Below, piece by piece: positions 4,156 through 49,885 of a DNA stretch of 61,835 nt. The stretch comes from Polaromonas sp. (lineage in GTDB: Bacteria; Pseudomonadota; Gammaproteobacteria; Burkholderiales; Burkholderiaceae_C), in assembly GCA_025352405.1 (NCBI GenBank), contig JANXTM010000234.1, forward strand, positions 1 through 61,835, in the 5' to 3' direction. Position numbers and translations under genes: made by a program. Each line of letters starts with the position of its first letter. Positions within the stretch are counted from its first letter, which is position 1. The notes beneath the pieces were generated by a model that was not told where the DNA came from, ran no database searches, and saw nothing but the letters and a program-made list of their open reading frames with translations.

Positions 4156-7100
4156 CCGCCGCTTACACCCACAACGGCCAGCCCACGTCAGCCGAGGCTT
4201 TCTACGCCATTGCCTGCGACCCGCGCCGCAGCGTTGCGGTTGAGGCTTGCGCCGGGGCAGGCAAAACCTGGATGTTGGTGTCACGCATGCTGCGGGCACT
4301 TTTGGAAGGCGACGGCGCGGGCGCTGAGGTGCAGCCGCACGAGATTCTGGCGATCACCTTCACCAAAAAGGCCGCGGGCGAAATGCGCGAACGCCTGTAT
4401 GAGTGGCTTGAGCAGTTTGCCCATGCAGACGACGAAACGCTGCGGCGGGAGCTGCTGGTACGCGGCGTTTCTCCCCGGGTACTGGACGAAAAGTTTGATA
4501 AAAACAGCCCCCACGGCAGCAAAGACGTGCGCGTACTGCTATCAAATTTATACCGGCGCGTGCTCGCCAGCGGCCGCCCGGTTCAGATCAGAACTTTTCA
4601 CAGCTGGTTTGCCGCCTTGTTGCGTAGCGCACCCATGGCGACCTTGCAGCAGCTTGGACTGCCTCTGAACTACGAGTTGCTGGAAGACGATGGTCCGGCC
4701 AAAGCGCTGGTCTGGCGGCGGTTTTATGCCGCGCTCGTTGCAAACCCCGCGCTGAAGACTGATTTTGAAGCCGTGGTTATGGCGCATGGCCGGTCTCAGG
4801 CCGACAAAGCGCTGCAGGGCGCGCTCGATAAGCGCACGGAGTTTGTGCTCGCCGATGCTGAAGGCATGGTCGACAGCTCGGTACAGCACTTCAGTGTCCA
4901 GTTTGCCGAGTTCGCGGGCTTGAGCCACCCAGACGAGTTGCTCAGCGCCAACCCGGCGGTGGCCCGATTGTTCATGGACGCCGCTGGCGCACTCGGCCGG
5001 GCTTCGGCCGTGACGTTTTCAGCCAAAGGCGTTGAGCTTGAGAAAGCCTTGAGCGAAGGCGATGCCGCCCGCGTCCTGACAGCCCTGTTGACCGACAAAG
5101 GCACGGCCCGCAAGTTTGGCGAAAAGATCGTCGGCATTGCTACCGTGCGCGAGGCACAAGACGTGGCGCTGCGCCTGCTCGAAGCGCGCCTGCAATCGGG
5201 CGCCTGGGACTACCAGCAGCGCATGGCCCGGCTGGCCCGCCTGCTGCTGGCCGAGTTCACGGGCTTGAAGCGAGAACGCGGCTGGGTCGACATGAACGAT
5301 GTGGAGCGCGCCGCCCAGATCATGCTCAGCGACGAGGTACTGTCGGGCTGGGTGCAGGAGCGGCTCGATGCGCGGATACGCCACCTGATGATTGACGAGT
5401 TTCAGGACACCAACCCGTTGCAATGGCAGGCGCTTTACGCCTGGTTAAGCGGCTATGGCGGTGCGGGCAGGGCACCGAGTGTGTTTATCGTTGGTGACCC
5501 GAAGCAAAGCATTTACCGCTTTCGCCGCGCCGAGCCGCAGGTGTTTATCGCCGCGCAGGCGTTCGTGCGCGACGGCTTGGGGGGCGACCTGCTGGCTTGC
5601 GACCACACCCGCCGCAACAGCGCAGCCGTGATCGGCACCGTCAATGCCGTTATGGAGGCCGCGCAGGCGAGCGACGGCTACGAAGGTTTTCGCCTGCACA
5701 GCAGCGCGTCGCAGGAAGAAGGCCGTGTGCTGCGGCTGCCGCCCGTGCCGCGTGAATCACGGGCCGACGAGGCGGTGGCCGATGCACCTTGGCGCGACAG
5801 CCTCACCACCCCCCGCGAATTGCCTGAAGAAACGCTGCGCACGCTTGAAGCGCGGCAGGCAGCGACGTGGATAGCTGGGCACTTGCAAACGGCGAGCGAA
5901 CGCAGCGCCGGGCCGCCCCAAGCAAGTTCAGCCCCCTCGGGGGGCAGCGCATTACACGGAGTGAAAAGCGTGGGGGCAAGGGACGTGATGGTGTTGTCGC
6001 GTAAACGCGCGGGATTGATGCCGCTGCAAGACGCGTTACGCGCCTTGAACATCCCTGCGCAAATTGGTGAAAAAACCGAGTTGATCGACTGCTGTGAAGT
6101 CCTCGATATCGTCGCGCTGCTCGATGTGCTGGTCTCGCCGCAGCACGATTTGTCGCTCGCCAGAGCGCTGCGCTCACCGCTGTTCAGCTTCAGTGACGAG
6201 GCACTGGTACAGCTTGCCCTGGCCAGAGAACGCCTGTCCGGCGATGTGCAGCCCTCATGGTTTGAAGTGCTACAAAAATCAGAGCCTGAAGCCCCCGTAT
6301 TTGCTGCCGCAGCAGCGTCTTTGAGTAAATACAAAGGCTGGGTAGACAGCCTGCCGCCGCATGACGCTCTGCAGGCGATCTACCACGACGGCGACGTGCT
6401 GGCGCGTTTTGCTGCGGCAGCACCGGCGGCATCCCGCAGCACGGTTCTGAGCAACTTGCGGGCCTTGTTGAGCGTGGCCTTGCAACTCGACGGCGGCCGC
6501 TACACCACTCCCTACGCCTTTGTGCGGGCGCTAAAAGCGGGGGGTCTGCAGGCCCCGGCGGCCGTCAACCCGGAGGCCGTTCGGCTGTTAACAATCCACG
6601 GCGCCAAGGGGTTGGAAGCGCACACGGTATTGCTGCTCGACACCGACACCGCAGAACGCTCGCTGGAGAGTATGAGCGTGCTGGTCGAATGGCCCGGCGA
6701 AGCCGCTGCGCCACAAAAATTCGTCTTTATGGTCAGCGAGAGCCGTCCGCCAGCCTGCGCGCAGCAAGCCCTTGCCACAGAGCAGCTGGCGCGCAAACGG
6801 GAAGAGCTTAACGCCCTGTATGTGGCTCTGACCCGCGCCCGCCACACCCTGGTCGTGTCGTCAATTGAGCCCTACAACGCAGCGCCGCAAAGTTGGTGGC
6901 AGCGTCTGCGGGCGTTGGCCCGCGAGGTACCTGTGCCCGGAGATTTTTCGCGTACTGCGCTGGCAGGCACCGAACCAGATACAGACGTGTTTGCCTTGCC
7001 TGATCTGCCAGCCTGGGTGCGGCCCCCCAACGATGCGCCAGCAAGCTCGGCACCCGTTGACGAAGATTCGCCTGCTGCCCGCATTGGCAAAGCCATGCAC

Positions 7101-7529
7101 CGCTTGCTTGAGTTAGGCGCTTTGGAAAATTTGGAGCCAGCTTTGGACAGGATGGTGACCCAGATTGCGCGCCAATTCAGTTTGACGAGCGCTCAGACCA
7201 GCGATGCCTGGGCCATGGCTAGCCGCATCCGGAGCGGTGAAGCAGCCTGGGCCTGGGACGACGCAGCCATTGCGTGGCAAGGCAACGAGGTCGAGCTGCA
7301 TCATCTTGGCCAGACCTTGCGGCTCGACCGACTGGTGCAGCGCAAAGACGCAGGCCATGTGGGTCACTGGTGGGTGCTCGACTACAAATCAGCCAGTCAG
7401 CCGCAGCAGGACGCGCTCAAATTGGCGCAATTGCAGGGCTACCGCAGCGCGCTGCAGACGCTGTACCCCGGCGAAACGATCAAGGCGGCCTTTCTTGCCG
7501 GGACGGGTGCGGTCATTGAGCTGACCTGA
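4152..7529 (+). CDS. addA: AddA-like UvrD/Rep-family helicase-nuclease subunit
   Basis: ATP-dependent DNA helicase with a C-terminal nuclease, 1125 residues. Superfamily 1 motifs appear in order: Walker A ACAGAGKTW (about 31-40), Q/Ia region LAITFTKKAAGEMRERL, motif II MIDEFQDTNPLQWQ (about 413), motif III VGDPKQSIYRFR (about 447), motif V LLTIHGAKGLEAH (about 812), motif VI LYVALTRARHTLVV (about 888). The nuclease motif LDYKS lies near 1075, followed by QLQGYRSAL. The start at 4152 gives a 4-nt ATGA overlap with addB. Two repeats sit in frame: family B at residues 119-134, just before the conserved QIRTFHSWFAALLR block, and family A at about 584-609. Both fall in linkers, so the helicase is probably still functional. 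Confidence 0.9.
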   Translation: MTAAYTHNGQPTSAEAFYAIACDPRRSVAVEACAGAGKTWMLVSRMLRALLEGDGAGAEVQPHEILAITFTKKAAGEMRERLYEWLEQFAHADDETLRRELLVRGVSPRVLDEKFDKNSPHGSKDVRVLLSNLYRRVLASGRPVQIRTFHSWFAALLRSAPMATLQQLGLPLNYELLEDDGPAKALVWRRFYAALVANPALKTDFEAVVMAHGRSQADKALQGALDKRTEFVLADAEGMVDSSVQHFSVQFAEFAGLSHPDELLSANPAVARLFMDAAGALGRASAVTFSAKGVELEKALSEGDAARVLTALLTDKGTARKFGEKIVGIATVREAQDVALRLLEARLQSGAWDYQQRMARLARLLLAEFTGLKRERGWVDMNDVERAAQIMLSDEVLSGWVQERLDARIRHLMIDEFQDTNPLQWQALYAWLSGYGGAGRAPSVFIVGDPKQSIYRFRRAEPQVFIAAQAFVRDGLGGDLLACDHTRRNSAAVIGTVNAVMEAAQASDGYEGFRLHSSASQEEGRVLRLPPVPRESRADEAVADAPWRDSLTTPRELPEETLRTLEARQAATWIAGHLQTASERSAGPPQASSAPSGGSALHGVKSVGARDVMVLSRKRAGLMPLQDALRALNIPAQIGEKTELIDCCEVLDIVALLDVLVSPQHDLSLARALRSPLFSFSDEALVQLALARERLSGDVQPSWFEVLQKSEPEAPVFAAAAASLSKYKGWVDSLPPHDALQAIYHDGDVLARFAAAAPAASRSTVLSNLRALLSVALQLDGGRYTTPYAFVRALKAGGLQAPAAVNPEAVRLLTIHGAKGLEAHTVLLLDTDTAERSLESMSVLVEWPGEAAAPQKFVFMVSESRPPACAQQALATEQLARKREELNALYVALTRARHTLVVSSIEPYNAAPQSWWQRLRALAREVPVPGDFSRTALAGTEPDTDVFALPDLPAWVRPPNDAPASSAPVDEDSPAARIGKAMHRLLELGALENLEPALDRMVTQIARQFSLTSAQTSDAWAMASRIRSGEAAWAWDDAAIAWQGNEVELHHLGQTLRLDRLVQRKDAGHVGHWWVLDYKSASQPQQDALKLAQLQGYRSALQTLYPGETIKAAFLAGTGAVIELT
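4506..4554 (+). repeat. Family B repeat inside addA (in frame)
   Basis: The palindrome arm GCTATCAAATTTATACC (4538-4554) is preceded at exact family spacing by CGGCAGCAAAGACG. That stretch differs by one or two bases from the moeA copy and is shared with the copies in dnaX and at 51741. It encodes a linker stretch SPHGSKDVRVLLSNLY before the conserved RTFHSWF motif. Confidence 0.75.
5901..5977 (+). repeat. Family A GC-rich repeat inside addA (in frame)
   Basis: A run of about 77 bp with an internal hairpin (GCCCCCTCGGGGGGC) ends in GCGTGGGGGC. The 3' part closely matches the inverted copy at 21036-21078, and the 5' part (GGGCCGCCCCAAGCAAG) matches the one at 21951-22115. It is translated in frame as a Ser/Gly/Pro-rich linker (SAGPPQASSAPSGGSALHG) between helicase motifs III and V. 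Confidence 0.8.
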
Positions 7530-7621
7530 ACTGCCGCCCTGGTTTTTCCAGGCAGCCGGCGCAAGGCGGGTCAATTTCTGGGAGACTGGGGCTTTTCATT
7601 TTGTAACTATTGAAAGACCCT

Positions 7622-8245
7622 ATGCTCAAACGCCTCGCTGTTTCCCTTGCCGTGCTGGCCGCCAGCACCACACTGTTGGCCCAGACCCCCGCGACCACGG
7701 TGCGTTTGCGCGCCACGATTGAAAAAGTCGAGCCTGGCAGTGTCACTGTCAAAGAGCGCAGTGGCGAGGTCATCACACTGGTGCGCTTGGCCGACATGGA
7801 AGTGTCTGAGGTCTACCCGCTGGCGCTGGCTGACATCAAGCCCGGCAGCTACATTGGAACGGCCGCCATGCCGCAGGCTGATGGCACGCAGGTGGCGCTT
7901 GAAGTGCTGGTGTTTCCCGAAGCCGCCCGTGGAACAGGCGAGGGCCATCGCCCGTGGGACCTGCGCCCCGACAGTACCATGACCAACGCCACCGTAGCTG
8001 ACCTGGCGGCTGCGCCCTCCAGCGTGCCGGGCGGCCAGAAGCTGACGCTCAAATACAAAGACGGTGAAAAAATCGTGATCGTGCCCGCCGGCGTGCCGGT
8101 CGTCAGCTTCAAACCCGGCAAGATGGACGAGCAAGCGCTGGTGGTGCCCGGTGCCAAAGTGCTGATCACCGCGCAGGAAAAAGATGGAAAACCCACCGCG
8201 CTTCGCATGGTCGTGGGCCGCAACGGGTTTGCACCGCCCATGTGA
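7622..8245 (+). CDS. Exported protein of unknown function
   Basis: Protein of 207 residues, not recognised. The start at 7622 (MLKRLAVSLAVLAASTTLLAQ) gives a clear Sec signal peptide, probably cleaved after LLAQ. The mature part is beta-rich. It begins TPATTVRLRATIEKVEPGSVTV, resembling the small 'influences how a metal or redox centre is buffered' OB-like exported domains often annotated as DUF5666-like, and holds repeated short segments on a V-x-V theme. No enzyme motif or metal-binding cluster is visible. It stands alone between addA and the flavoprotein gene. Confidence 0.7.
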   Translation: MLKRLAVSLAVLAASTTLLAQTPATTVRLRATIEKVEPGSVTVKERSGEVITLVRLADMEVSEVYPLALADIKPGSYIGTAAMPQADGTQVALEVLVFPEAARGTGEGHRPWDLRPDSTMTNATVADLAAAPSSVPGGQKLTLKYKDGEKIVIVPAGVPVVSFKPGKMDEQALVVPGAKVLITAQEKDGKPTALRMVVGRNGFAPPM

Positions 8246-39588: not shown

Positions 39589-40125
39589 ATGTCTTTAGAT
39601 AAAGTTTCCCCCGGCAAAAACGTCCCAGAATCTTTCAACGTGATCATCGAAATTCCGATGAATGCTGACCCGGTGAAGTACGAAGTGGACAAAGAATCCG
39701 GCGCGATTTTTGTGGACCGTTTCATGAGCACGTCCATGCACTACCCGACCAACTACGGCTATGTGCCCCGCACTATCAGCGGTGATGGCGATCCAGTCGA
39801 TGTGCTGGTGATCACGCCAGTGCCCCTGATTCCAGGCGTTGTGGTGACCTGCCGCGCTATCGGTATTTTGAAGATGACCGACGAAGCCGGTGAAGATGGC
39901 AAGGTGCTGGCGGTGCCGATTGATAAAAAATGTTCGCTCTACAGCCACTGGAAAAAACCTGAAGACATGAATCCGCTGCGGTTAAAAACCATTGCCCACT
40001 TTTTTGAGCACTACAAAGATCTGGAAGAAGGCAAGTGGGTCAAAATTGGCGGTTGGGAAGGCCCTGACGCTGCCAAAAAAGAAATCACTGACGGTATTGC
40101 AAACTACCAGAAAGCAAACAGCTAA
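39589..40125 (+). CDS. ppa: Soluble inorganic pyrophosphatase
   Basis: Cytoplasmic family I pyrophosphatase of 178 residues. It contains [25 protein letters not shown], the metal-binding signature [12 protein letters not shown] and the [12 protein letters not shown] and [18 protein letters not shown] blocks. It removes PPi without energy recovery, in contrast to the divergent HppA pump. The stop overlaps a decayed family B repeat. Confidence 0.97.
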
Positions 40126-40165
40126 GTTGTCGCTAGCTAGCCCCGGCTAGCTCGGCATCCACCGC
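40117..40165 (-). repeat. Decayed family B repeat at the ppa stop codon
   Basis: The minus strand carries CCGGGGCTAGC, identical over 11 bp to the moeA copy and one base out of register. The palindrome (AACAGCTAAGTTGTCGC) is badly decayed. The ppa TAA lies within it. Confidence 0.5.
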
Positions 40166-40429
40166 TCGTTCCGCAGGCGGTCTACACGGCTTGTAAAGGC
40201 CGCATAACCAGAATCTCTGTGGAGAAGTTGCCGGCTGTGGTGGCGGCTTGAGTGTGGTGCCGGTGGAGTCAAGGTTCACTGCCGCGACGGCCTGTCTCGG
40301 TTTGAGGGGATCGATCTGCTTTAAAACCAACGCAGCATGGTCAGGGTTCAGCCGCCAAGGCGAATCTAGCGGTACGGAACCCAGCGTCAAAGCCACAGCT
40401 GGCAGGTTGTAAAAATCAAGAAACCGCAT
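40133..40429 (-). CDS. Doubtful small hypothetical protein
   Basis: Open frame of 98 codons from an ATG at 40429 (MRFLDFYNLPAVALTLGS), extendable upstream to 40450. No known motif, no clear ribosome binding site, and its 3' end runs into a decayed repeat. Residue composition (Pro-rich second half) is not strongly protein-like. It may be a remnant of the same decayed locus that holds the broken membrane-protein gene and the IS element. Confidence 0.25.
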   Translation of the reverse strand: MRFLDFYNLPAVALTLGSVPLDSPWRLNPDHAALVLKQIDPLKPRQAVAAVNLDSTGTTLKPPPQPATSPQRFWLCGLYKPCRPPAERAVDAELAGAS

Positions 40430-40516
40430 GCTGGGCGTAATGGGTGGCACTGGTGTGTGCGTTGCATGTTACCTACCAGGGATGCCGTTTGGTTGGGCGA
40501 AGTCAAATCTGAAGTG

Positions 40517-40774
40517 CTACACCGCAAGCGTAAGTAACAGCAGGCATGCTGGAATTGTTCGAGTCCATTGTGTGGCCAGTATCAGCAAGCCCAGTAGAAG
40601 CGCAGCTGCCACTGGCACGGCCTGCTGTGCATAACGGCCCGCAGCTGCGAGTACGTAGTCGCCGCCCGCCTGCAAGAATACAAACCAGGCAGCAGCCACA
40701 CTGCCCATCAACATGGGTCGTCAGAGCGCAACGAGTACGAAAAAAGTCAGCTGTCCGCAAAATGCAAGGGCCAT
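40517..40774 (-). pseudogene. Broken small membrane-protein gene beside the IS element
   Basis: From ATG 40774, one frame of 86 codons encodes four hydrophobic segments: MALAFCGQLTFFVLVAL, MLMGSVAAAWFVFLQAG, VPVAAALLLGLLILATQW and IPACLLLLTLAV. A TGA at codon 18 (40721-40723), readable as a mutated CGA, separates TM1 from the rest. The layout suggests a 4-TM protein of about 85 residues (SMR/GtrA size), now inactive. The IS630 element ends 9 nt upstream of the ATG, so its promoter is also displaced. Family identity is not established. Confidence 0.45.
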
Positions 40775-40782
40775 GCTTACTA

Positions 40783-41894
40783 TAGACCCGGCACGATTTA
40801 TAAATGAATTTTTGATGATTATCGAAGTCAACAGTTCATGCAAAAAGAAGATGCCCGCAAGCAGTCGCGCGAAGTACTGCATGAACGCCGCAAGCAAGTC
40901 ATACGCATGCACCGCAAGGGTGTTGGTGTGACGCGGATCGTGGAACTGACGGAGTTGAGCTGGACGGCCGTCAACACCGCGTTACGCCTGCACGGTGCAG
41001 GCGCGAGTGCTACGCTAAAGCCCGGTGTACGCGGCAAGAAGCCGGGCAGCGGACGCAGCCTGAGCCCTGAACAAGAGTGGGGCATTGCCCAAACGATTTG
41101 CGACAAGCGCCCCGAGCAATTGAAGATGGACTTTGCCTTGTGGAGCAGACCCGCAGTGCGCCAGCACATCGAGCTGAGCCTAGGCATCAAACTGTCTATT
41201 CGGGCGGTAGGTAACTACCTGGCGCGTTGGGGATTTACACCACAAAAGCCGATCAAAAAGGCCTATGAGCAGCGCCCTGAGGCCGTCCAGGCGTGGCTCG
41301 ATAAGCACCCCGCCATTGAAGCCAAAGCCAAGGCAGAAGGAGCAGAGATTCACTGGGGCGATGAGACCGCACTGGTCAACACCGACGTCAGGGGCAGGAG
41401 CTACGCGCCAGTGGGCAAAACACCCGTGACGTTTGCTGTCGGCGGCACGCGCCACAAGCTGTCGATGATTGCGACTGTGACCAATCAAGGCAAGACGGGC
41501 TGGATGATCATTGATGAGTCGTTTAACTCAGACAAGTTCATTGAGTTTCTTGGGGCGTTGATCAAAGATACACAGCGCAAAGTGTTCCTGATACTGGACA
41601 ACTTGCGGGTTCATCACAGCAAGCCCGTTAAAGCCTGGGCGCTGGAAAACGCCCAGAAGATTGAGTTGTTCTATTTGCCCAGCTATGGCCCTGAGCTCAA
41701 TCCTGAAGAGAGGTTAAACGCAGACCTCAAGCATGCGATCACGTCCAAAGTGCCGGTACGAACGAAAGCAAAACTCAGGGCTGCTGCCACTGAACACATG
41801 ACAATGCTTGAGCAAACACCGAAGCGGGTGAAAAAGTACTTCGGCGACCCCAAAGTCGCTTACGCCGCTTCATGAATAAATCGTGCCGGATCAA
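40783..41894 (+). mobile_element. IS630-family insertion sequence, complete
   Basis: Element of 1112 bp bounded by imperfect 24-bp terminal inverted repeats (40783-40806 and 41871-41894; 20 of 24 bases match, shared core CCGGCACGATTTAT). It is flanked by TA on both sides (40781-40782 and 41895-41896), as expected for IS630-family TA target duplication. It carries one full-length transposase gene. It sits downstream of the glycosylation operon at 42.2-49.0 kb and next to a broken small membrane-protein gene. Confidence 0.92.
40838..41875 (+). CDS. IS630 family transposase
   Basis: DDE transposase of 345 residues. The N-terminal winged-helix part begins MQKEDARKQSREVLHERRKQ with HTH around VTRIVELTELSWTAVNTAL. 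The catalytic domain has IHWGDETAL (first Asp), KVFLILDNLRVHHSK (second Asp) and YLPSYGPELNPEERLNADLK (Glu), the IS630/Tc1 pattern. No frameshift or stop is present, so it may be active. The stop codon lies inside the right inverted repeat. Confidence 0.95.
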   Translation: MQKEDARKQSREVLHERRKQVIRMHRKGVGVTRIVELTELSWTAVNTALRLHGAGASATLKPGVRGKKPGSGRSLSPEQEWGIAQTICDKRPEQLKMDFALWSRPAVRQHIELSLGIKLSIRAVGNYLARWGFTPQKPIKKAYEQRPEAVQAWLDKHPAIEAKAKAEGAEIHWGDETALVNTDVRGRSYAPVGKTPVTFAVGGTRHKLSMIATVTNQGKTGWMIIDESFNSDKFIEFLGALIKDTQRKVFLILDNLRVHHSKPVKAWALENAQKIELFYLPSYGPELNPEERLNADLKHAITSKVPVRTKAKLRAAATEHMTMLEQTPKRVKKYFGDPKVAYAAS

Positions 41895-42157
41895 TAACTT
41901 GCCACCAGTGTCTGCGGCGCCGCGGGTCAATTTTGCCAGCGTTGTTTTGTCGCGCTGAGCGAATCAAACAAGCTCGACGTCTGCACCAAATTACCTCAGC
42001 GCCTCTGTAAAGCCTATTTTTAGCAGGACATTCAGTGTGACAGCACGGCCAAGCCCATTCACAAGCCACGGCAGTGCAGACATAGCAGGCGCCAGGGTTA
42101 GCCACTCAAACTGAAGTTGACAAAAATTTTATGGCTGAGGCGTCGCGGCCCGTCTGC

Positions 42158-42586
42158 TCAGTTACGCTTGACAAACACCAGACGCGCCATCAGGACATAC
42201 GACAGGACAGCCAATGGAACCAGCAAAATGGCTTGGGACACCAGTTTGTTGCTTATTGAAAGCGAAAGGGCTTCAAGCAACATCAGATTGACGCTATACA
42301 CCACCAGGTAGCAAGTCACAAAACGGGGGTAGCGTGCTTTTGACAATTGCCTGAATGCGTAGCCGCCAGTTGTAAAAAAATTAAAAATGGAACCCATCAG
42401 CATGCTGACCAGAAGGGCCAACCAGGCAGCCGCCCCAAAAATGATGGCCAGGCTGTAAAGCGCATAGCCTAACAGTGTGTTGACGCCGCCAGCGACAATG
42501 AATCGAAGTATTTCATTGTCGCGAAGCATCGCCGCGAAGCGGCTGGCATGCCATAGTGACCGAAAACGCCGCAAACTTTTAACCAT
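42158..42586 (-). CDS. GtrA-like membrane protein (second copy)
   Basis: Protein of 142 residues with four TM helices. ILRFIVAGGVNTLLGYALYSLAI is the classical GtrA start, GSIFNFFTTGGYAF the TM2-TM3 loop, and ARLVFVKRN the end. It probably flips a polyprenyl-phosphate-linked sugar. ATG at 42586 overlaps the end of the upstream methyltransferase gene by 8 nt. Last gene of the six-gene operon; a stretch of about 260 nt without a gene separates it from the IS630 element. Confidence 0.85.
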   Translation of the reverse strand: MVKSLRRFRSLWHASRFAAMLRDNEILRFIVAGGVNTLLGYALYSLAIIFGAAAWLALLVSMLMGSIFNFFTTGGYAFRQLSKARYPRFVTCYLVVYSVNLMLLEALSLSISNKLVSQAILLVPLAVLSYVLMARLVFVKRN

Positions 42587-43517
42587 GTTTAAAGCCGGCG
42601 ACAAACAGGTTGCCCACGTTCATTCCAAGCTTGATACTGTCCAGACCCAGTATGCGCAGCCCACGTGCGATGCTTGACTTGATACCCGCAGGCAGGGGTG
42701 CCAGACGCAACCAGTAACCCAACCGATACCGATTTACAAATGCGTTGACAGTGATCTTTTTATACCCGGCGTCTTCCAGCAATTTCCGCACGCTTGACGC
42801 TGAAAACAGTTGCATGTGTTCGATGTCAATGATGGGGGAGCGCTTGCCCAGGAAACGGTTGACCGGGCTGCGGTAGTCATGTGTCACGGCGACGAACACG
42901 CCACCCGGTCGTAACAGCCGCAGCGCGGCCTCGGCGATGACGCGAGGGTCACGCACATGCTCCAGCGTCATGAAACAGCAAACGAGGTCAAACGACTCTG
43001 ACTGAAAATCTGCCTCTTCAAACATGCCTTCCCTGATCCAGGCACGACGATGTTCTGGCGCGGCCTGTATCGCTGCGGAGGACGGTTCAACCCCAACCAG
43101 TTTAGTAAAACCTTCACTTTTCAGGCAGTCCAAAAAAATACCTGTTCCTGTGCCGATTTCCAGTGCGCAGCGATGTTGCTTCAACTGCGCGAGTGCTTGC
43201 CTGGCTGCAAGCGCATAGGCGGCTGCAGCGTCGTTGGCTTCTTCAGAACTGTCGTAGTCTGCCAAGTGGTAGGCGCGCGCAAGTTCATCCGTATCCGGTG
43301 GTTGGTCGGCGTAGACCAGATCACACACTGCGCATTGAACCAGCCGATGACTCATGTACTCGGGCGCCTTGCGCGATGAAAAGCTGAAGCCCGACAGTTT
43401 GGCCGGGTCGATACTGTTTTCAAGAAACAAGCTTGCCTGGTCCGCGCCAGCCCGGCATACCGGACAAGATCTTGGTATTTTTATCATGTGTTTCTCATCA
43501 ATGAGGCTGGACACCAT
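42579..43517 (-). CDS. SAM-dependent methyltransferase with zinc-binding N-terminus
   Basis: Protein of 312 residues (302 if Met at 43487 is used). An N-terminal zinc-ribbon-like module has CPVCRAG and, about 45 residues later, CAVCDLVYADQPP. Then comes a class I methyltransferase domain: ALEIGTGTGIFLDCL (motif I), GVEPSS, SFDLVCCFMTLEHVRDP and LLRPGGVFVAVTHD. This architecture is typical of methyltransferases acting on sugars or sugar-phospholipids in surface-polysaccharide clusters. It lies between the large membrane protein gene and gtrA in the same operon, so a sugar O- or C-methylation is likely. Confidence 0.88.
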   Translation of the reverse strand: MVSSLIDEKHMIKIPRSCPVCRAGADQASLFLENSIDPAKLSGFSFSSRKAPEYMSHRLVQCAVCDLVYADQPPDTDELARAYHLADYDSSEEANDAAAAYALAARQALAQLKQHRCALEIGTGTGIFLDCLKSEGFTKLVGVEPSSAAIQAAPEHRRAWIREGMFEEADFQSESFDLVCCFMTLEHVRDPRVIAEAALRLLRPGGVFVAVTHDYRSPVNRFLGKRSPIIDIEHMQLFSASSVRKLLEDAGYKKITVNAFVNRYRLGYWLRLAPLPAGIKSSIARGLRILGLDSIKLGMNVGNLFVAGFKHG

Positions 43518-43538
43518 GCTGTCAGCACGCTTTAAGAG

Positions 43539-45401
43539 TCAGCGCACTGCGTAATGGATAGCGAGATAGCCACTCATTTCAAAAGCCTGTGTCCTGACGT
43601 AGACACTATCAAAATCTTCAACCAGCAAACGGATATCTGGCTGGTTTACATCAACCACTAGCCAGCCACTGCGTTGAAGCGTGGCTGCACCTTGGTCTAA
43701 AAACTCCCGGCGTAACGCCGACGGAAATGCGTATAAATTGGCTGGTCCGTGGAAGACGCTCCATACTGCGTTTGATGCGGAAGAGGATGGGTTCAGGAAT
43801 GGACCCACCACAGTGACGGGCTCAGGCAACAAACTTTGTGTTTGTGCGATCACTGCCAGAGTCGCCTCTGGGAATAAGGCCTGTCCACCTGCTTCCGGGA
43901 GTGCCCAGCGTATCCACAGCGGGTCAAACCAGGTCTGCGGACTTGCTTTTGCACCAGTCTGCCAGGCGTTCCAGTTGAACACGCTTAACCAACCTAGCAA
44001 GCAAGCAAGCAAGCCGATGGCCAGTCCCCTTGCGAAACCTGCTGTCCGCGCCCATGCGTGAAGCAGCATCAGCAAAATGAATGGCAACAGGTTCAGGACA
44101 TTGTTGTCGTGGCTTCGGCCCAGAAAATAGGAAAACGTCGAGTAGGCCAGCAACGAAAGCAAAATGCCTTGGCGCAGCGCAGCAGTATTTCCGCTTTGCT
44201 GAAAGGTTTGCCAGTTGACCCAGGTGGACAACATTAAGGCGACAGCAAAAAACCAGATGGTTCCTTTGATGTTGATGGGCAAGGCGCCTGGTGGACTCAA
44301 TACATAGGCAAACAAACCGTGTGCTGTGGGTGTTGTGCGATATGCCAGCCAGTAAACCATCAGGAAACAGGCGGTCAGCAGGCCGAGATTAAAAACTAGG
44401 ATGCTGACACTGCGCAGCAGCGTTGGCAATACCGCGGCGCCTTTTTTTGCCTGCCGCACGAGCATAAAGTGAGGCCACCAGACACAGGTGGCATAAAACG
44501 CAGATTCAATCGACCAGAGCGCGGCGACAGCCCAGCACAGGTGACCTATCCAGTACGGAAAATTGTCGCTGTCGCTGTCAAAATAAAGCAGTAATGCGGT
44601 GAGCGTGAGCACTGGCAGGAAGCGCATGCCGTTGACGGATGGAAACGCTGTGGGTGAACCGCCCATGACCGGAAAACTGTTCCAGAAAAAACAGCAGGCC
44701 ACGCAAAGCAAGAGCACTGCAGCGCGCAACGTCAACTGCCTTGGCCGTGTGATGCGCAATGCCAATGCGGTCACGCTGAATGCAAACAGCAGCGTGAAAA
44801 TGCTGATCAGATAATAACTACCTACCCAGCAGTTTCGTCCGCAGACCGAGGCAATGAGCAGGGTGGGCCCAAGGCCATATTGCGGTGGAAAATCCCTAAA
44901 AATGCGTGCACCTGCCGAGAGCAATTCGCTGGGTCCTATATATGCTCCCCAATGGTGCCACGCTGAAAACAGGACATCTCCGCTGACATAAGTGAGGGTG
45001 CTGAAGCTCAGTATTACAACAGCTATGGCAAATAGGGAATTTTGCACTGCGCTTGCTTTTTGAGGTAGTGGAGCGGTCTCTTCTAGGTTGTTAGGCGCAC
45101 GAAAAAAGACTGCTGTAAATATCACTACGATGACGGCGAATACTGTCATTTCACCCACAGATACGGTGAACCCCCGGCCTCCTGTATGCCGCCACCACGG
45201 CAGCACTCTTGCAATCAGTAAACCGCACACAACCCCCAACGTTACAAGCAGCTTGATGGTTCGTAAGTCGTCGGTAACTGACGGCAGCTTGTGTGCAAAT
45301 CCGGCGGATCTTCTGGCCGCCAATGGCCATAGTGCCAGTAGCAATCCGATCAAGGCATAAGTGATGAGTATCGGCAGTTTTTCGGTCATCGAAGTGTGCA
45401 T
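43539..45401 (-). CDS. Large polytopic membrane protein, putative lipid-linked-sugar glycosyltransferase
   Basis: Protein of 620 residues (616 from Met at 45389) with about 12-13 predicted TM helices and a C-terminal periplasmic domain of about 130 residues. No strong family motif is seen. The arrangement of one extended loop after TM4-TM5 (SAWHHWGAYIGPSELLSAGARIFRDFPPQYG) followed by many TM helices recalls GT-C glycosyltransferases of the PMT/GT39 type. Its operon position, 2 nt after an epimerase-GT2 fusion gene and before methyltransferase and GtrA genes, supports a role in transferring a polyprenyl-linked sugar at the outer face of the inner membrane. Function inferred from context only. 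Confidence 0.7.
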   Translation of the reverse strand: MHTSMTEKLPILITYALIGLLLALWPLAARRSAGFAHKLPSVTDDLRTIKLLVTLGVVCGLLIARVLPWWRHTGGRGFTVSVGEMTVFAVIVVIFTAVFFRAPNNLEETAPLPQKASAVQNSLFAIAVVILSFSTLTYVSGDVLFSAWHHWGAYIGPSELLSAGARIFRDFPPQYGLGPTLLIASVCGRNCWVGSYYLISIFTLLFAFSVTALALRITRPRQLTLRAAVLLLCVACCFFWNSFPVMGGSPTAFPSVNGMRFLPVLTLTALLLYFDSDSDNFPYWIGHLCWAVAALWSIESAFYATCVWWPHFMLVRQAKKGAAVLPTLLRSVSILVFNLGLLTACFLMVYWLAYRTTPTAHGLFAYVLSPPGALPINIKGTIWFFAVALMLSTWVNWQTFQQSGNTAALRQGILLSLLAYSTFSYFLGRSHDNNVLNLLPFILLMLLHAWARTAGFARGLAIGLLACLLGWLSVFNWNAWQTGAKASPQTWFDPLWIRWALPEAGGQALFPEATLAVIAQTQSLLPEPVTVVGPFLNPSSSASNAVWSVFHGPANLYAFPSALRREFLDQGAATLQRSGWLVVDVNQPDIRLLVEDFDSVYVRTQAFEMSGYLAIHYAVR

Positions 45402-45403
45402 TT

Positions 45404-47365
45404 TCAGGCTTTGCCATCTGGCAGCAATTCTGTGACTTTGCCATGACGTATCAGTGCTGCGCGGATCAAGCGCGGGCGGCCTTTAACCTCCAGCATGATT
45501 TTGGCGACATATTCGCCCACCAGACCAATCGCAAAAAGATTGAAAGAGCCGAACATCAACACGGCGATCAGCAAGGTGGTGGTACCGCGTGGCGCGATGT
45601 CCGGGATCAGGATACGGAGCAATGCAACCACAGTGGCTGCCAGCGTAGAAAGCGCCAGCGACACCACGCCTGCTGTTGTCAGCATGGTCAGCGGCGTGTT
45701 GCTGAAGGAGAAAATACCTTTCTTGGCCCAGTCGATATTTTTAATCAGATTGTTGGTCGAGTGGCCAAACATGCGTTCTGGCCGGACATAGTCCACACCG
45801 GTTTGGCGAAAACCGACATAAGCGCGCAGTCCGCGCACAAAAAGATCTCGTTCCGGGCAATTGAGCAACCAGCCCACCACGCGGCGGTCCATCAGGGAAA
45901 AATCGCCAGCATCCAGCGGGATGGTGACGTAACTAAAACTGGCGAACACGCGGTAAAAAGCCTTGTACATCAAGCCCCAGTGCCAGGGCATGTCGCGCCT
46001 GATGCGCCTGCCGTAGACGACGTCCCAACCGTCTTTCCATTGGGCGTAAAACTGCTCGATCAATTCCGGCGGATCTTGCAGGTCACCGTCGAGCAGCACC
46101 ACGGCGTCTTTGGTCGACAGCTCCATGCCGCTGCGAAAGGCCATTTGCGATCCAAAATTGCGTGAATGCGAAATGCCGATCACGCGGGGGTCGGTGGCGC
46201 TGATATCAAGGATAACCTGGGCGCTGTCGTCCGGACTGGCATCGTTGACGAAGATGATTTCGTAATCAATACCCAACTTGCGAAAGGTCTCCGTGAGCCT
46301 GCGGTGCATCACCGGTATCGCCTCGCTGTCCTTGTAGCAGGCAATGATGGCGGAGACGCTGCGTTTACGGCTGCCAGCATCTTTCTTGCTGTTAGATGCA
46401 AAGTCTGCATCGCTTAGCTGTGCAACCCATGCGGCTGAGGAGCGTAGGCCGTCTCCGAGTGCGATGGTCGATTTCCAGCCCAGCGCTTGCTCTGCCTTGG
46501 CTGGGTTTGAGTACCAGTCTGCCAAGTCCCAGCTGCGACCTTCCATGCTGCCAAAGCGGGGTTCTTCGGGCACTGAAAAAACCAGTTTTGTCAACGCTGC
46601 CAGATCGGCAATCGTGGTTTTTATGCCGCTGCCGATGTTGAAGCTTTCACCATACAGCGGCGGATGCATTTGCGTAGCCGCCATGACGAATGCCGCACAT
46701 ACATCCTGAACGTGAACGAAATCGCGTGATGTGCGTGGGTCCACAAATGGTGGCAGTTTGCCGTTGACTGCTTGCCGCAGCAGGTTGGGAATCAGTCGGG
46801 ACGTGTCCTCTAGCGGACCGTAGACCGAGTACAAGCGCAGGTTAACGCAGGGAAAGCTGTGATGCTTGCCCATAAAGCGCAAGTAGTTTGTAACCGCTAC
46901 TTTTGACACTGCGTAGTGGCTGTTCGGCTCGCAGGCACTGTTCTCTGGCGGTGCAGTGCAGTTATCACCGTATTCGGAGGAGCTGCCGGCGTGAATGAAT
47001 GCCGAGAAAGGCCGCAGCATCAGCAAACTAACCAGATTGACGATTGATTGGTAATTGGTTTGATGAATCAGGCCAGCTTCTGCTTCAAACGAGTAGGCGC
47101 CATACGCCACACAATCGAACACTGTTTGCGGCCCAACGCTGTCGACCAGGTTTTTTGTGGCGGCGGCATCGTTCAGGTCAACAGCGATCACTTGCTCATC
47201 GCTAATTTCGACCAGACGCCAGTTTTTCTCCCGCATGACTACGGCATAAACGTCCTTTCGAACTCCTGCAATCAGTTTAAATAGGTTTGCGCCAATGAAA
47301 CCGGACGCACCAGTGACAAGAATGGGGCCGCGAAGTGCGCGGATAACGGCGGGGAGCGCTTGCAT
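45404..47365 (-). CDS. Fusion of NAD-dependent sugar epimerase/dehydratase and polyprenyl-phosphate GT2 glycosyltransferase
   Basis: Protein of 653 residues with two full enzymes. Residues 1-315 are an extended SDR: VTGASGFIGANLFKL at about 17-31, active-site HYAVSKVA (YxxxK), and substrate loop RFGSMEGRSWDLADWYSNPAKAEQALGW. Residues 335-653 are an ArnC/DPM1-like GT2: VSAIIACYKDSEAIPVM, VVLLDGDLQDPPELI, GDFSLMDRRVVGWLLNCPERD and two C-terminal TM helices. It would make a nucleotide sugar and load it onto undecaprenyl phosphate in one polypeptide. No stop or frameshift separates the halves. One nt separates it from the transketolase C gene. Confidence 0.9.
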   Translation of the reverse strand: MQALPAVIRALRGPILVTGASGFIGANLFKLIAGVRKDVYAVVMREKNWRLVEISDEQVIAVDLNDAAATKNLVDSVGPQTVFDCVAYGAYSFEAEAGLIHQTNYQSIVNLVSLLMLRPFSAFIHAGSSSEYGDNCTAPPENSACEPNSHYAVSKVAVTNYLRFMGKHHSFPCVNLRLYSVYGPLEDTSRLIPNLLRQAVNGKLPPFVDPRTSRDFVHVQDVCAAFVMAATQMHPPLYGESFNIGSGIKTTIADLAALTKLVFSVPEEPRFGSMEGRSWDLADWYSNPAKAEQALGWKSTIALGDGLRSSAAWVAQLSDADFASNSKKDAGSRKRSVSAIIACYKDSEAIPVMHRRLTETFRKLGIDYEIIFVNDASPDDSAQVILDISATDPRVIGISHSRNFGSQMAFRSGMELSTKDAVVLLDGDLQDPPELIEQFYAQWKDGWDVVYGRRIRRDMPWHWGLMYKAFYRVFASFSYVTIPLDAGDFSLMDRRVVGWLLNCPERDLFVRGLRAYVGFRQTGVDYVRPERMFGHSTNNLIKNIDWAKKGIFSFSNTPLTMLTTAGVVSLALSTLAATVVALLRILIPDIAPRGTTTLLIAVLMFGSFNLFAIGLVGEYVAKIMLEVKGRPRLIRAALIRHGKVTELLPDGKA

Positions 47366-47366
47366 A

Positions 47367-48275
47367 TCAGTGGTTTTGAAGCGCAGCCATCATGCTGGCT
47401 GGATCTAGTGCGCTTGATTTTCGCAAGAACCCCTGAGAGCCATAGCGCTCAAAATGGTGGGCGCGGGCGTGGTGATGGTAGAAGTGTTTGATGGCTGTGC
47501 CGCTCTCAAGAAAGTGAAGCGCCAGTTCGGCGCCAAAGCTGCCGCGGCGTACGTGCTCTTCGCCGACATGCAGCACACCGGATCGGCTAATTTGACTTAG
47601 CAGTTGTGCTGGCAAAGGGTTGTGTTCAAGCGGCAATTCGGTAACTGCCCATAGCTTAGGTCGGCGCGATGCCGGGAGTCTGTTGAAATCCTCGATATAC
47701 GTGCCAGCCAGCGGACCAACTGCAATCACCACAGGTCCCTCACCCAACGTCAGTTGCCGCCAGGGTGCGTAGGCAGGTACCGCGTAGCCTGCAGGCGGCT
47801 CACCGCGTCCCATACGAATGTAAGTCGGGTTCTGACTGTCACCGGCGCGCTCAATTACAGCGGCCATGTCTTCATCAAATACTGGCACGTAAGCGCGCAT
47901 GTGGGGCAGAGCCAGCATGACGCCGTAATCCTCAATGGCGTGGTGGGTGGGGCCCATCACGCCATAGCCATAACCGCCGCCGTTGCCTATCAATTTCACT
48001 GGCAAATTATGAAAACAGATGTCATTGCGGATTTGCTCAAATGGGCGGGCGTAACAAAATGGAGCAATGCTGTAAATCCAGGCCTCTAGACCCTGACGGG
48101 CTAGCCCGGCGGCTACAGACACCATGTTTTGCTCGGCAACACCGGCGTTGATAAAGCGCGGCCCCAGCGTTGCCTGAAGCGCTTCAAGAGCCATAAAACC
48201 AAGGTCACCCGTCAAAAAAACCAGGTCAGGTTTGGCTGCCCTCGCTACCAGGGCATCACACAGTTGCCTTCTCAC
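47367..48275 (-). CDS. Transketolase-like protein, C-terminal (pyrimidine-binding) subunit
   Basis: Protein of 302 residues. The pyrimidine domain has DLVFLTGDLGFMALEALQATLGPRFINAGVAEQNMVSVAAGLA (Glu for TPP activation in VAEQN). The C-terminal transketolase domain begins near PVVIAVGPLAGTYIEDF. GTG at 48275 is chosen as start because GTGA overlaps the stop of the N-subunit gene; an ATG extension to 48338 would overlap that gene by 67 nt. Together with the next gene it forms a split TPP enzyme, apparently dedicated to this cluster rather than to central metabolism. Confidence 0.88.
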   Translation of the reverse strand: MRRQLCDALVARAAKPDLVFLTGDLGFMALEALQATLGPRFINAGVAEQNMVSVAAGLARQGLEAWIYSIAPFCYARPFEQIRNDICFHNLPVKLIGNGGGYGYGVMGPTHHAIEDYGVMLALPHMRAYVPVFDEDMAAVIERAGDSQNPTYIRMGRGEPPAGYAVPAYAPWRQLTLGEGPVVIAVGPLAGTYIEDFNRLPASRRPKLWAVTELPLEHNPLPAQLLSQISRSGVLHVGEEHVRRGSFGAELALHFLESGTAIKHFYHHHARAHHFERYGSQGFLRKSSALDPASMMAALQNH

Positions 48276-49039
48276 GCAAACTCGATTTCTTTTATGGCTT
48301 GCGCAAACTGTGCTGCGCTCAGGGGCAAATAGTGCCATTCCATCCGGTTTTCCATGAATCGCACCCCGTGGCCTTTAACCGTTTTAAGAACAACGATCTT
48401 CAGGCGTTCACCGGTCACAGCCAGCGCCGCCTGGATGGCGTCAGTATCGTGACCGTCAATAATTTGCAGGTCAACATCAAAACCACGCAGTCGCTCCCAC
48501 AAGGGCGACATGGATGCGATGTCTGCGGTTGAACCAAAACCTTGCAGGTTGTTGTGATCTATCAGCACGGTGAGGTTGGCCAGACGGTGGTGGCTTGCGA
48601 AAATCAACGCCTCCCAGGTCGAGCCTTCCTGCCACTCGCCGTCTGATGTCAGGCAAACCACTTGTGACGCACTGCCTTTCAACCTGAAAGCCAGCGCTGT
48701 GCCTGCGGCCAGGGACAGGCCGTGTCCCAAACTTCCCGTGGCAAACGGAATATCGGCAATCCCTGAAATCGGTGGGTGACCAGCCAGCAGTGTGTTGTCC
48801 TGATGAAAAGTTTTCAAATCGTCATCACTGAGCCGACCGACGCTCCACAGAGCGGTGTAAAGCGCACCTGCCGAGTGACCTTTTGACAAAATAAACTGAT
48901 CGCTACCTTGAAGGTAATCGTGAAAAACAACGAGGATGACATCCAGCGCTGATAAGTTACCGCCGATGTGACCCACACCGCTTTCGAAATGCATCTGTAA
49001 AAGTCGCTTTCGGGCGCGATATAGAATTTGTGGCGACAT
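48272..49039 (-). CDS. Transketolase-like protein, N-terminal (TPP-binding) subunit
   Basis: Protein of 255 residues. It has the TPP/Mg motif LTSDGEWQEGSTWEALIFASHHRLANLTVLIDHNN (GDG-like plus N), FILSKGHSAGALYTAL and IPFATGSLGHGLSLAAG, all typical of the transketolase N-terminal half. First gene of the minus-strand operon. Transfers a two-carbon ketol unit; in sugar-biosynthetic clusters such split enzymes can make branched or chain-extended sugars, but the product is not known here. Confidence 0.92.
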   Translation of the reverse strand: MSPQILYRARKRLLQMHFESGVGHIGGNLSALDVILVVFHDYLQGSDQFILSKGHSAGALYTALWSVGRLSDDDLKTFHQDNTLLAGHPPISGIADIPFATGSLGHGLSLAAGTALAFRLKGSASQVVCLTSDGEWQEGSTWEALIFASHHRLANLTVLIDHNNLQGFGSTADIASMSPLWERLRGFDVDLQIIDGHDTDAIQAALAVTGERLKIVVLKTVKGHGVRFMENRMEWHYLPLSAAQFAQAIKEIEFA

Positions 49040-49108
49040 AAATCCGAATTTTAGACCGAGGAGCCCAGCAACTTTGAGTGCAATCGCACCTTTCTCCCGT
49101 ACAACCTT

Positions 49109-49885
49109 CTACACCTTGCCCTCCGGATCCCGGTAAATCAGCCCATGCAACCGGCTTTTATGCTGGTTGGCAAAAGGCCGCCACTGGCCTTCTGGCTGTG
49201 CCAGTCTGTTGGCTACAGCCCACCACACGCTGGGGTTGACGCCCAGACCAATGTGGCTGGCCAGTACCTCAATGTTTTCTGTTGACGGATTGGCAAGGCC
49301 AGGTGCCTGAATGCTGCCCTGCCAGGCCACAACACCATCGGTGCGCGAGTAAATGCTGGTGGTAGGCACCGGCGGTGCAGTGGGCAGGTCGTAATTTGCT
49401 GCCTCGCGTTCAATGTTACGGCCGCTCGTCAGTCGGTATACTCGCCAGGCGTTGGTCGCCTTGTGCGAGCCCGCAAACGGCGTGCCCAGTGTGATAACGC
49501 CCCGCACCATGTCAGGCAGTTCTTTGGCCAACTCACGTGCGTACACGCCACCCAAGCTCCAGCCAATCAGGCTTACCTTGCGGCCGGTGCTTTTAAAAGT
49601 ACGTACGAGCTTGCTTTTGGCTTCGTCCAGCACACCTGCACGCGGACCAAAGTTAAATCCTTGCTCCCAGCCCCAAGGGCTGTAGTGCAGTGACTGCAGG
49701 TACTTGCGCAGCGGTATGGTCGACGCGTCATTGGCCGAGAGACCGGGGAACACCATCACTGCGTGGCCGTCGCCCCGGGGTGCCCGGGCCAACAGCGGCC
49801 ATGCGGGCAGCAGCGCGCCAAACTCCCAGAACGCCCGTAGCTCAAGCGCTAGCAACCAGGCGCTGGGCGGTTGGTCATGAAGCAT
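49109..49885 (-). CDS. Alpha/beta hydrolase (lipase-like, PGAP1/LipA-like fold)
   Basis: Protein of 258 residues. It has AVMVFPGLSANDASTIPLR, nucleophile elbow SLIGWSLGGVYARELA (GxSxG), GVITLGTPFAGSH, a probable acid in TTSIYSRTDGVVAW and a His in LASHIGLGVNPSVWW. The start at 49885 (MLHDQPPSAWLL) overlaps the stop of the acyltransferase gene by 11 nt. A longer frame to 49978 would be low-complexity and overlap that gene by over 100 nt. Coupling to WS/DGAT suggests turnover of wax esters or triacylglycerol, or another neutral lipid step. Confidence 0.82.
   Translation of the reverse strand: MLHDQPPSAWLLALELRAFWEFGALLPAWPLLARAPRGDGHAVMVFPGLSANDASTIPLRKYLQSLHYSPWGWEQGFNFGPRAGVLDEAKSKLVRTFKSTGRKVSLIGWSLGGVYARELAKELPDMVRGVITLGTPFAGSHKATNAWRVYRLTSGRNIEREAANYDLPTAPPVPTTSIYSRTDGVVAWQGSIQAPGLANPSTENIEVLASHIGLGVNPSVWWAVANRLAQPEGQWRPFANQHKSRLHGLIYRDPEGKV

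Follow-up and report, generated by a model that had tools for sequence, protein, structure and literature searches.

A conserved operon of Polaromonas sp. joining a split transketolase to a fused epimerase-type dehydrogenase/glycosyltransferase, with a putative role in envelope glycosylation

Organization of the operon

We analyzed a stretch of 61,835 nucleotides from Polaromonas sp. (contig JANXTM010000234.1 of GenBank assembly GCA_025352405.1), referred to here in its full length as the window, with all coordinates counted from its first letter. It contains six genes coding for the two halves of a split transketolase (tkN and tkC), a fusion of a sugar-nucleotide short-chain dehydrogenase/reductase (SDR) with a family 2 glycosyltransferase (GT2), a polytopic membrane protein, a methyltransferase, and a GtrA-type protein (Table 1). 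Proceeding from tkN to gtrA, the first two genes share a GTGA overlap, the next three junctions leave 1, 2, and 21 nt between the genes, and the methyltransferase gene overlaps gtrA by 8 nt. The initial annotation had described six tightly packed minus-strand genes separated by at most 21 nt or overlapping, which the list of open reading frames (ORFs) and these junctions bear out exactly. The start of tkC is a GTG that overlaps the stop codon of tkN, while the first ATG would extend the gene to 48338; gtrA starts with an ATG, and the first TTG would place its start at 42604. A promoter scan was uninformative, with no sites found and 4.1 expected.

Table 1. Genes of the operon, the surrounding island, and related regions that lack an epimerase-type SDR
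Feature	Sequence	Coordinates	Strand	Characteristics
tkN	Window	48272-49039	minus	Transketolase_N (E 9e-26); N-terminal half of a split transketolase, binding the diphosphate of thiamine diphosphate (ThDP)
tkC	Window	47367-48275	minus	Transket_pyr (E 4e-21); pyrimidine-binding/C-terminal half of a split transketolase
SDR-GT2 fusion, 653 aa	Window	45404-47365	minus	Epimerase (E 2e-41) and Glycos_transf_2 (E 2e-22) in a single protein
Polytopic membrane protein, 620 aa	Window	43539-45401	minus	Without Pfam match; predicted GT-C-like glycosyltransferase
S-Adenosylmethionine methyltransferase	Window	42579-43517	minus	Methyltransf_23 (E 2e-29); N-terminal CxxC...CxxC
GtrA-type small membrane protein	Window	42158-42586	minus	GtrA_DPMS_TM (E 3e-12); putative flippase
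Island	Window	40115..49124		blastn of the window against L148, from the one-contig genome G099 of the same genus
Insertion sequence	Window	40781..41896	plus	DDE transposase at 40838-41875 (Pfam DDE_3 and HTH_33)
tkN-tkC-methyltransferase-GT2	L179	8352-12193		Without epimerase-type SDR; close transketolase
tkN-tkC-methyltransferase-GT2	L180	6428-10092		Without epimerase-type SDR; more distant transketolase
tkN-tkC-methyltransferase-GT2	L181	7125-10778		Without epimerase-type SDR; more distant transketolase
tkN-tkC-methyltransferase-GT2	L182	5429-8441		Without epimerase-type SDR; more distant transketolase

Conservation of the gene set among bacteria

The initial annotation held that these genes act together, an idea that separate occurrence in relatives would contradict. 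A comparison of gene neighborhoods found the linkage conserved and the gene set recurring far above chance. A scan of genome contigs for the fusion returned 459 candidate stretches, among them 435 relatives, and the best 80 were kept, a set of closest matches that is hence biased toward near relatives. Each of these 80 matches spans both halves of the fusion (L067 and L072 stop short in the GT2), and in 72 of them the ORF picker recovered it as one plus-strand ORF of >600 aa. A tkC gene lies within 5 kb upstream of the fusion in 79/80 loci and a tkN gene in 76/80; where one of them was missed, the upstream sequence is no longer than 1,087 bp, and the contig of the single tkC miss ends 321 bp upstream. 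A close tkC gene (at least 45% identity) on the same strand with a gap of at most 150 nt adjoins the fusion in 70/80 loci. Ten loci depart from this pattern. Contig ends truncate L044 and L085, and the gaps in L095, L104, and L106 measure 170 to 581 nt. The L100 tkC has 31% identity, the pair found in L087, L089, and L091 is a more distant one, 0.9 to 2.8 kb away, and the likewise distant pair of L063 lies on the opposite strand. This last locus, labeled as an Eremiobacterota metagenome-assembled genome (MAG), contains a distant tkN/tkC/GT2 trio (5308-8148) divergent from its own methyltransferases and SDR-GT2 fusion, so two related modules may be neighbors here.

The remaining genes of the operon are more variable in their presence. 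With the window's own sequences as the only queries, and therefore as lower bounds, a window-type methyltransferase was found within 6 kb on either side in at least 47, and GtrA nearby in at least 25, of the 58 loci having at least 6 kb downstream. A second methyltransferase family, annotated through one representative, occurs in 30/81 loci. By a simple hydropathy count, at least one large polytopic ORF lies within 6 kb in 51/72 loci, and these proteins fall into several unrelated clusters. According to record titles, the relatives belong to alpha-, beta-, and gammaproteobacteria and to cyanobacteria (Nostoc), and MAG labels, which may be wrong, add Planctomycetota, Acidobacteria, Nitrospinae, Myxococcales, Magnetococcales, Verrucomicrobia, Lentisphaerae, and others. 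Azorhizobium, Ramlibacter, and Caenimonas are among the culturable genera in which the operon occurs. A tkC sequence with 55% identity is present on a plasmid of Methylobacterium aquaticum (NZ_AP014705.1, 809769-810701), at a place where the PLSDB table lists no gene. A scan of viral_contigs for phage carriage, with patterns from one protein that reach close relatives only, gave no relative.

The linkage can also be seen in samples of genomes of the phylum. Of 398 sampled genomes, 22 had a match to the fusion with an E value of 1e-60 or lower. This match covered both halves in five of them, including the window's genome, and only the GT2 half in the other 17; the four non-window genomes all have tkC and tkN beside the fusion. 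Searching with tkC in 398 genomes drawn likewise gave 63 genomes at E 1e-25 or better, six of them at 1e-96 or better and the next at 1e-44. Five of these six carry an adjacent fusion (4/5 if the window's own genome is set aside), while the sixth, G516, codes for a tkN-tkC-methyltransferase-GT2 series with a separate GT2. Pairwise distances of tkN, tkC, SDR, and GT2 in 53 loci are correlated with r of 0.875 to 0.915 (maximum in 500 permutations, 0.197), as expected if the genes travel together. The tkC-side sample, the 79/80 linkage, and these correlations rule out chance clustering. They also bear on the idea of a plain GtrABC-type operon in which the transketolase is an incidental neighbor. 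The GtrA protein, the GtrB-like GT2, and the variable protein with its GT-C-like model would fit such an operon, but a linkage kept in 79/80 loci from many phyla, and in 5/6 genomes reached from the transketolase side, makes this explanation very improbable, and we disfavor it.

The pairing of transketolase and GT2 is wider than the fusion, because four sister regions code for both without an epimerase-type SDR (Table 1). The L182 GT2 was visible in the fusion search and dropped by the ORF picker, and L180 has an ORF for a classical short-chain dehydrogenase directly upstream.

A split transketolase with a probably altered substrate pocket

The best PDB relatives of tkN and tkC are 6yak (E 4e-49), the N-terminal half of a split-chain transketolase, and 6yaj (E 7e-30), both from Carboxydothermus hydrogenoformans, whose enzyme is likewise made from two genes. 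Compared with Escherichia coli TktA, the readable close rows of tkN keep the equivalents of H26, H66, H100, D155, E160, N185, and H261, except for one row with an Arg in the place of H100. In tkC, the readable close rows keep the equivalents of E411 (76/76) and H473 (77/77), while H461 is replaced by Gly in 76/76, D469 by Met in 74/77 and Gln in 3/77, and S385 by other residues in 76/76; R520 is an Arg in 58/77. The Carboxydothermus enzyme keeps the His and the GEDG motif (THAGLTVGEDG), whereas the window has NGGGYGYGVMG. These counts come from an alignment made with a shorter tkC start, in which all 84 matching rows were kept, the stops of L067 and L109 were set to X, and the R358 column lies outside. 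R358 was read from a first alignment with a longer start, which dropped 15 of the 84 rows, mostly where the query, extended at its start, ran into a stop, and its equivalent is kept in 63/63 readable rows. L067 and L109 each have an in-frame stop inside the tkC match.

The ThDP/Mg site and the catalytic His and Glu of a transketolase are thus in place, and the canonical contacts to sugar phosphate and hydroxyls, S385, H461, and D469, are not. As judged from its residues, with the ThDP and catalytic ones kept and these three lost, the enzyme should be active in catalysis but have a changed substrate pocket. As a control, 28 loci with other split transketolases of the order were compared, two of them without a tkC match; among the other 26, H461 is kept in three and D469 in three. 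With 23/26 lacking each residue, their loss is ruled out as a signature of this operon only.

Split-type transketolase halves apart from these are frequent in the order (L008 to L035), with a tkN match at E 1e-20 or better in 53/300 genomes, and those of L017, L021, L022, and L032 lie beside an SDR match. The tkN of UKL13-2 (L007, 1221-1974; L036, 7003-7756, from the same record as L051) matches in three reading frames and looks frameshifted or mis-sequenced. Elsewhere in the window's genome, a 731-aa frame matches transketolase, which makes it probable that an ordinary enzyme of this kind is already present.

The SDR-GT2 fusion and the membrane components

Residues 1 to about 325 of the fusion form a sugar-nucleotide SDR and residues from about 335 to 653 a polyprenyl-phosphate-type glycosyltransferase. 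Its model has a predicted local distance difference test (pLDDT) score of 82 and a predicted template modeling (pTM) score of 0.59, and it ends in two long helices (557-586 and 595-627). The nearest PDB entry to the GT2 half is 5ekp, sll0501 of Synechocystis (E 9e-59), and ArnC (9hwj) also matches it (E 2e-37).

The SDR half begins with a GxxGxxG motif and has conserved R214/D215 and R277, as read from an alignment without the rows that were poorly covered, low in identity, or interrupted by a stop. In a survey of 82 rows, residue 128 is Ser in 79 and Thr in three, Y151 and K155 are present in all, and S129-S130, also present in all, occupies the place of Asp-Glu in RmlB and Ser-Glu in ArnA. 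The Asp-Glu pair following the catalytic Thr/Ser is a feature of RmlB-type 4,6-dehydratases, and S129-S130 rules out an SDR of that type as well as an ArnA-type decarboxylase. In the fold comparison, which covers only the SDR half since this half filled the list for the fusion, the nearest structures are UDP-sugar 4-epimerases and their relatives (Z of 38 to 34 in the 50 best rows). The chemistry of UDP-sugar 4-epimerases passes through a 4-keto sugar. Because the two domains are fused, the SDR is suggested to work on the same nucleoside diphosphate (NDP)-sugar line that the GT2 uses, and its product may be channeled to the GT2.

The polytopic protein has no match in Pfam or NCBIfam searches. 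An AlphaFold2 model made from ten sequences (pLDDT 71, pTM 0.77) matches ArnT with a Z of 12.4 (4.7 A over 293 residues), followed by protein O-mannosyltransferases, a GPI mannosyltransferase, oligosaccharyltransferases, Emb, AftB, ALG6, and PimE; the first 33 rows are GT-C-type enzymes or complexes that hold such a chain. An acidic residue (Asp or Glu) occupies position 170, located in the first long loop, as well as position 432 in 10/10 aligned sequences. From the model, the protein is predicted to be a GT-C-like glycosyltransferase. The methyltransferase has conserved cysteines at positions 18, 21, 62, and 65, in rows filtered like those first aligned for the SDR, and the small membrane protein matches GtrA_DPMS_TM with 47 bits (cut-off, 26).

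Proposed pathway

Starting from the gene set and its linkage, the intact ThDP, catalytic, and SDR residues, the GT2 and GtrA families, and the GT-C-like fold of the model, we propose that this operon makes a branched sugar and places it on an envelope acceptor, a scheme to which we give roughly even chances. The SDR half would oxidize a common NDP-sugar, probably a UDP-hexose and probably at C4, to a keto-NDP-sugar, and the split transketolase would attach to that carbonyl a two-carbon ketol unit taken from a ketose phosphate, so that a C2-branched (octose-type) sugar results. The methyltransferase would then methylate the sugar, joined in some loci by the second methyltransferase, the fused GT2 would load it onto undecaprenyl phosphate, GtrA would carry the lipid-linked sugar across the membrane, and the variable GT-C-like protein would transfer it to the acceptor. 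The pathway put forward in the initial annotation keeps its architecture of making, loading, flipping, and transfer, given the linkage, the closeness of the GT2 to sll0501 and ArnC, the GtrA protein, and the predicted GT-C-like fold. Its branched or chain-extended methylated product can still only be inferred, also in view of the sister arrangement without the epimerase-type SDR.

ORFs resembling RmlA, GalF, or ManC were found in 4/81 loci (searched with these three as queries, among ORFs of 90 aa or more in loci that differ in length), which rules out a conserved nucleotidyltransferase of these kinds nearby. As such ORFs are not regularly present, an existing housekeeping NDP-sugar is probably used as the starting point. 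The same count bears on whether the transketolase merely supplies a sugar-phosphate precursor for an ordinary lipid-linked sugar, with no part in tailoring it. The retention of R358 throughout and of R520 in most rows makes some phosphate recognition likely and would suit such a supply role, but the activating enzymes that it calls for are this rare (kinases were not searched for), the S385, H461, and D469 equivalents are lost, and the genome probably has an ordinary transketolase already. We regard the supply role as improbable.

The same module could also work by chain extension. Canonical transketolases take aldehyde acceptors, and here the acceptor to be extended would be an aldehyde such as an NDP-hexodialdose or a free aldose, while the SDR would act as an epimerase or reductase of the new carbonyl. 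The closeness of the SDR fold to epimerases and the sister arrangement, in which the transketolase occurs without an epimerase-type SDR, agree with this, but no aldehyde-making enzyme was found in the operon or among ten annotated representative neighbor proteins, which cover a minority of the neighbor clusters. We consider chain extension rather unlikely, and branching is favored over it because the split transketolases of miharamycin and amipurimycin, located near keto-sugar chemistry, have been proposed to act in that way.

Several points weigh against the branching pathway. The main difficulty is posed by the four sister regions, among them that of G516, where the 18 kb read gave no epimerase-type SDR match; the SDR may not make the acceptor of the transketolase, or a different enzyme may do so. 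The SDR could be a plain C4 epimerase, and a free sugar phosphate could be the substrate of the transketolase. Given the control described above, an altered pocket is a frequent trait of split transketolases rather than one that sets this operon apart. As to the last step, a Z of about 12 is below the level that the tool itself gives as safe for helical proteins, and Foldseek gave no match to the polytopic model at E 0.001 or better, ranking BetP transporters first with low probability and ArnT fourth (E 0.009, probability 0.99, TM 0.32). Finally, we infer the substrates, the order of steps, branching as opposed to chain extension, the position of the methyl group, and the acceptor.

Genomic island

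The operon lies in an island of about 9 kb that is absent from G099, where the two flanking genes, for a pyrophosphatase and a hydrolase, adjoin, i.e., an empty site; by blastn, positions 40114 and 49125 of the window map to 14476 and 14648 of L148. The G+C content of the island is 54.1%, and none of 391 windows of the same length outside it, which overlap one another, is as low (minimum, 55.2%). Gain by transfer fits this low G+C content, with loss in G099 as the alternative, and the operon is probably a self-contained, horizontally moving module. An insertion sequence, with 28-nt terminal inverted repeats (40781-40808 and 41869-41896) that are 86% complementary, is located downstream of the operon and is missing from G099 together with it.

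Comparison with known systems

The operon looks like a lipid-carrier glycosylation module of the GtrABC and Arn kind, with a sugar-making front end. GtrABC systems of Salmonella and Shigella are horizontally acquired and consist of the flippase GtrA, the bactoprenol glycosyltransferase GtrB, and a variable, serotype-specific GtrC (PMC3688519). The window has a GtrA-family protein, a GtrB-like GT2 with C-terminal membrane helices, and a polytopic protein that may correspond to GtrC; the large polytopic proteins near the operon differ among loci, in the manner of the variable GtrC (PMC3688519). It differs in that its GtrB-like GT2 is fused to an SDR and that a split transketolase and one or more methyltransferases are added. 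The Arn pathway (ArnA, ArnC, ArnT, ArnE, and ArnF) likewise joins an SDR-type NDP-sugar enzyme, a polyprenyl-phosphate GT2 (30% over 312 columns between the window and E. coli ArnC), a flippase, and a GT-C transferase. However, by Pfam, the operon has no formyltransferase, aminotransferase, or deformylase, its SDR has Ser-Ser instead of the Ser-Glu of the ArnA decarboxylase and lacks the formyltransferase domain of that protein, and GtrA takes the place of ArnEF.

Among the matches listed in the open-licence PMC literature, no description of this gene set was found. The nearest published case among them is the wps-2 exopolysaccharide cluster of Actinoplanes missouriensis (AMIS_56690-56780), which also has a split transketolase and a methyltransferase within a polysaccharide cluster but has other partners, namely aminotransferases and Wzx/Wzy; the portion of the paper available to us mentions no SDR-GT2 fusion (PMC13390465). 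Bradyrhizose was considered as a product owing to the Bradyrhizobium locus L064 and is not claimed; a term search did not find "transketolase" or "epimerase" in the main text of one bradyrhizose paper (PMC4743980).

In YerE-type pathways for yersiniose A and erwiniose of lipopolysaccharides, a ThDP enzyme branches a keto-NDP-sugar for an envelope polysaccharide, according to a 2025 review (PMC12247030). YerE is a member of the decarboxylase superfamily that takes alpha-keto acids, whereas the window has a split transketolase and an SDR fused to GT2, and Pfam finds no acetolactate-synthase-like ThDP decarboxylase among the operon genes. The same review presents the split transketolases of miharamycin and amipurimycin as proposed to transfer hydroxyacetyl units to keto-sugars, none having been characterized in vitro (PMC12247030). 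The likeness to the window, by description only, is in the split-gene transketolase, these being systems for nucleoside antibiotics of Streptomyces. It is conceivable, with chances that we put somewhat below even, that the operon represents a widespread, undescribed, and mobile kind of envelope glycosylation. In it, C2-branched sugars would be built by a split transketolase, and not by a YerE-type decarboxylase, on a keto-NDP-sugar provided by the SDR, whose fusion partner GT2 would use up the product. If so, transketolase-made branched sugars would be a surface feature of many bacteria, spread through a portable operon well beyond the antibiotics of Streptomyces. The acceptance of ketones by split transketolases is unproven according to the review (PMC12247030), and numerous close homologues for testing it are available through this operon, where the SDR partner is already fused to the next enzyme.

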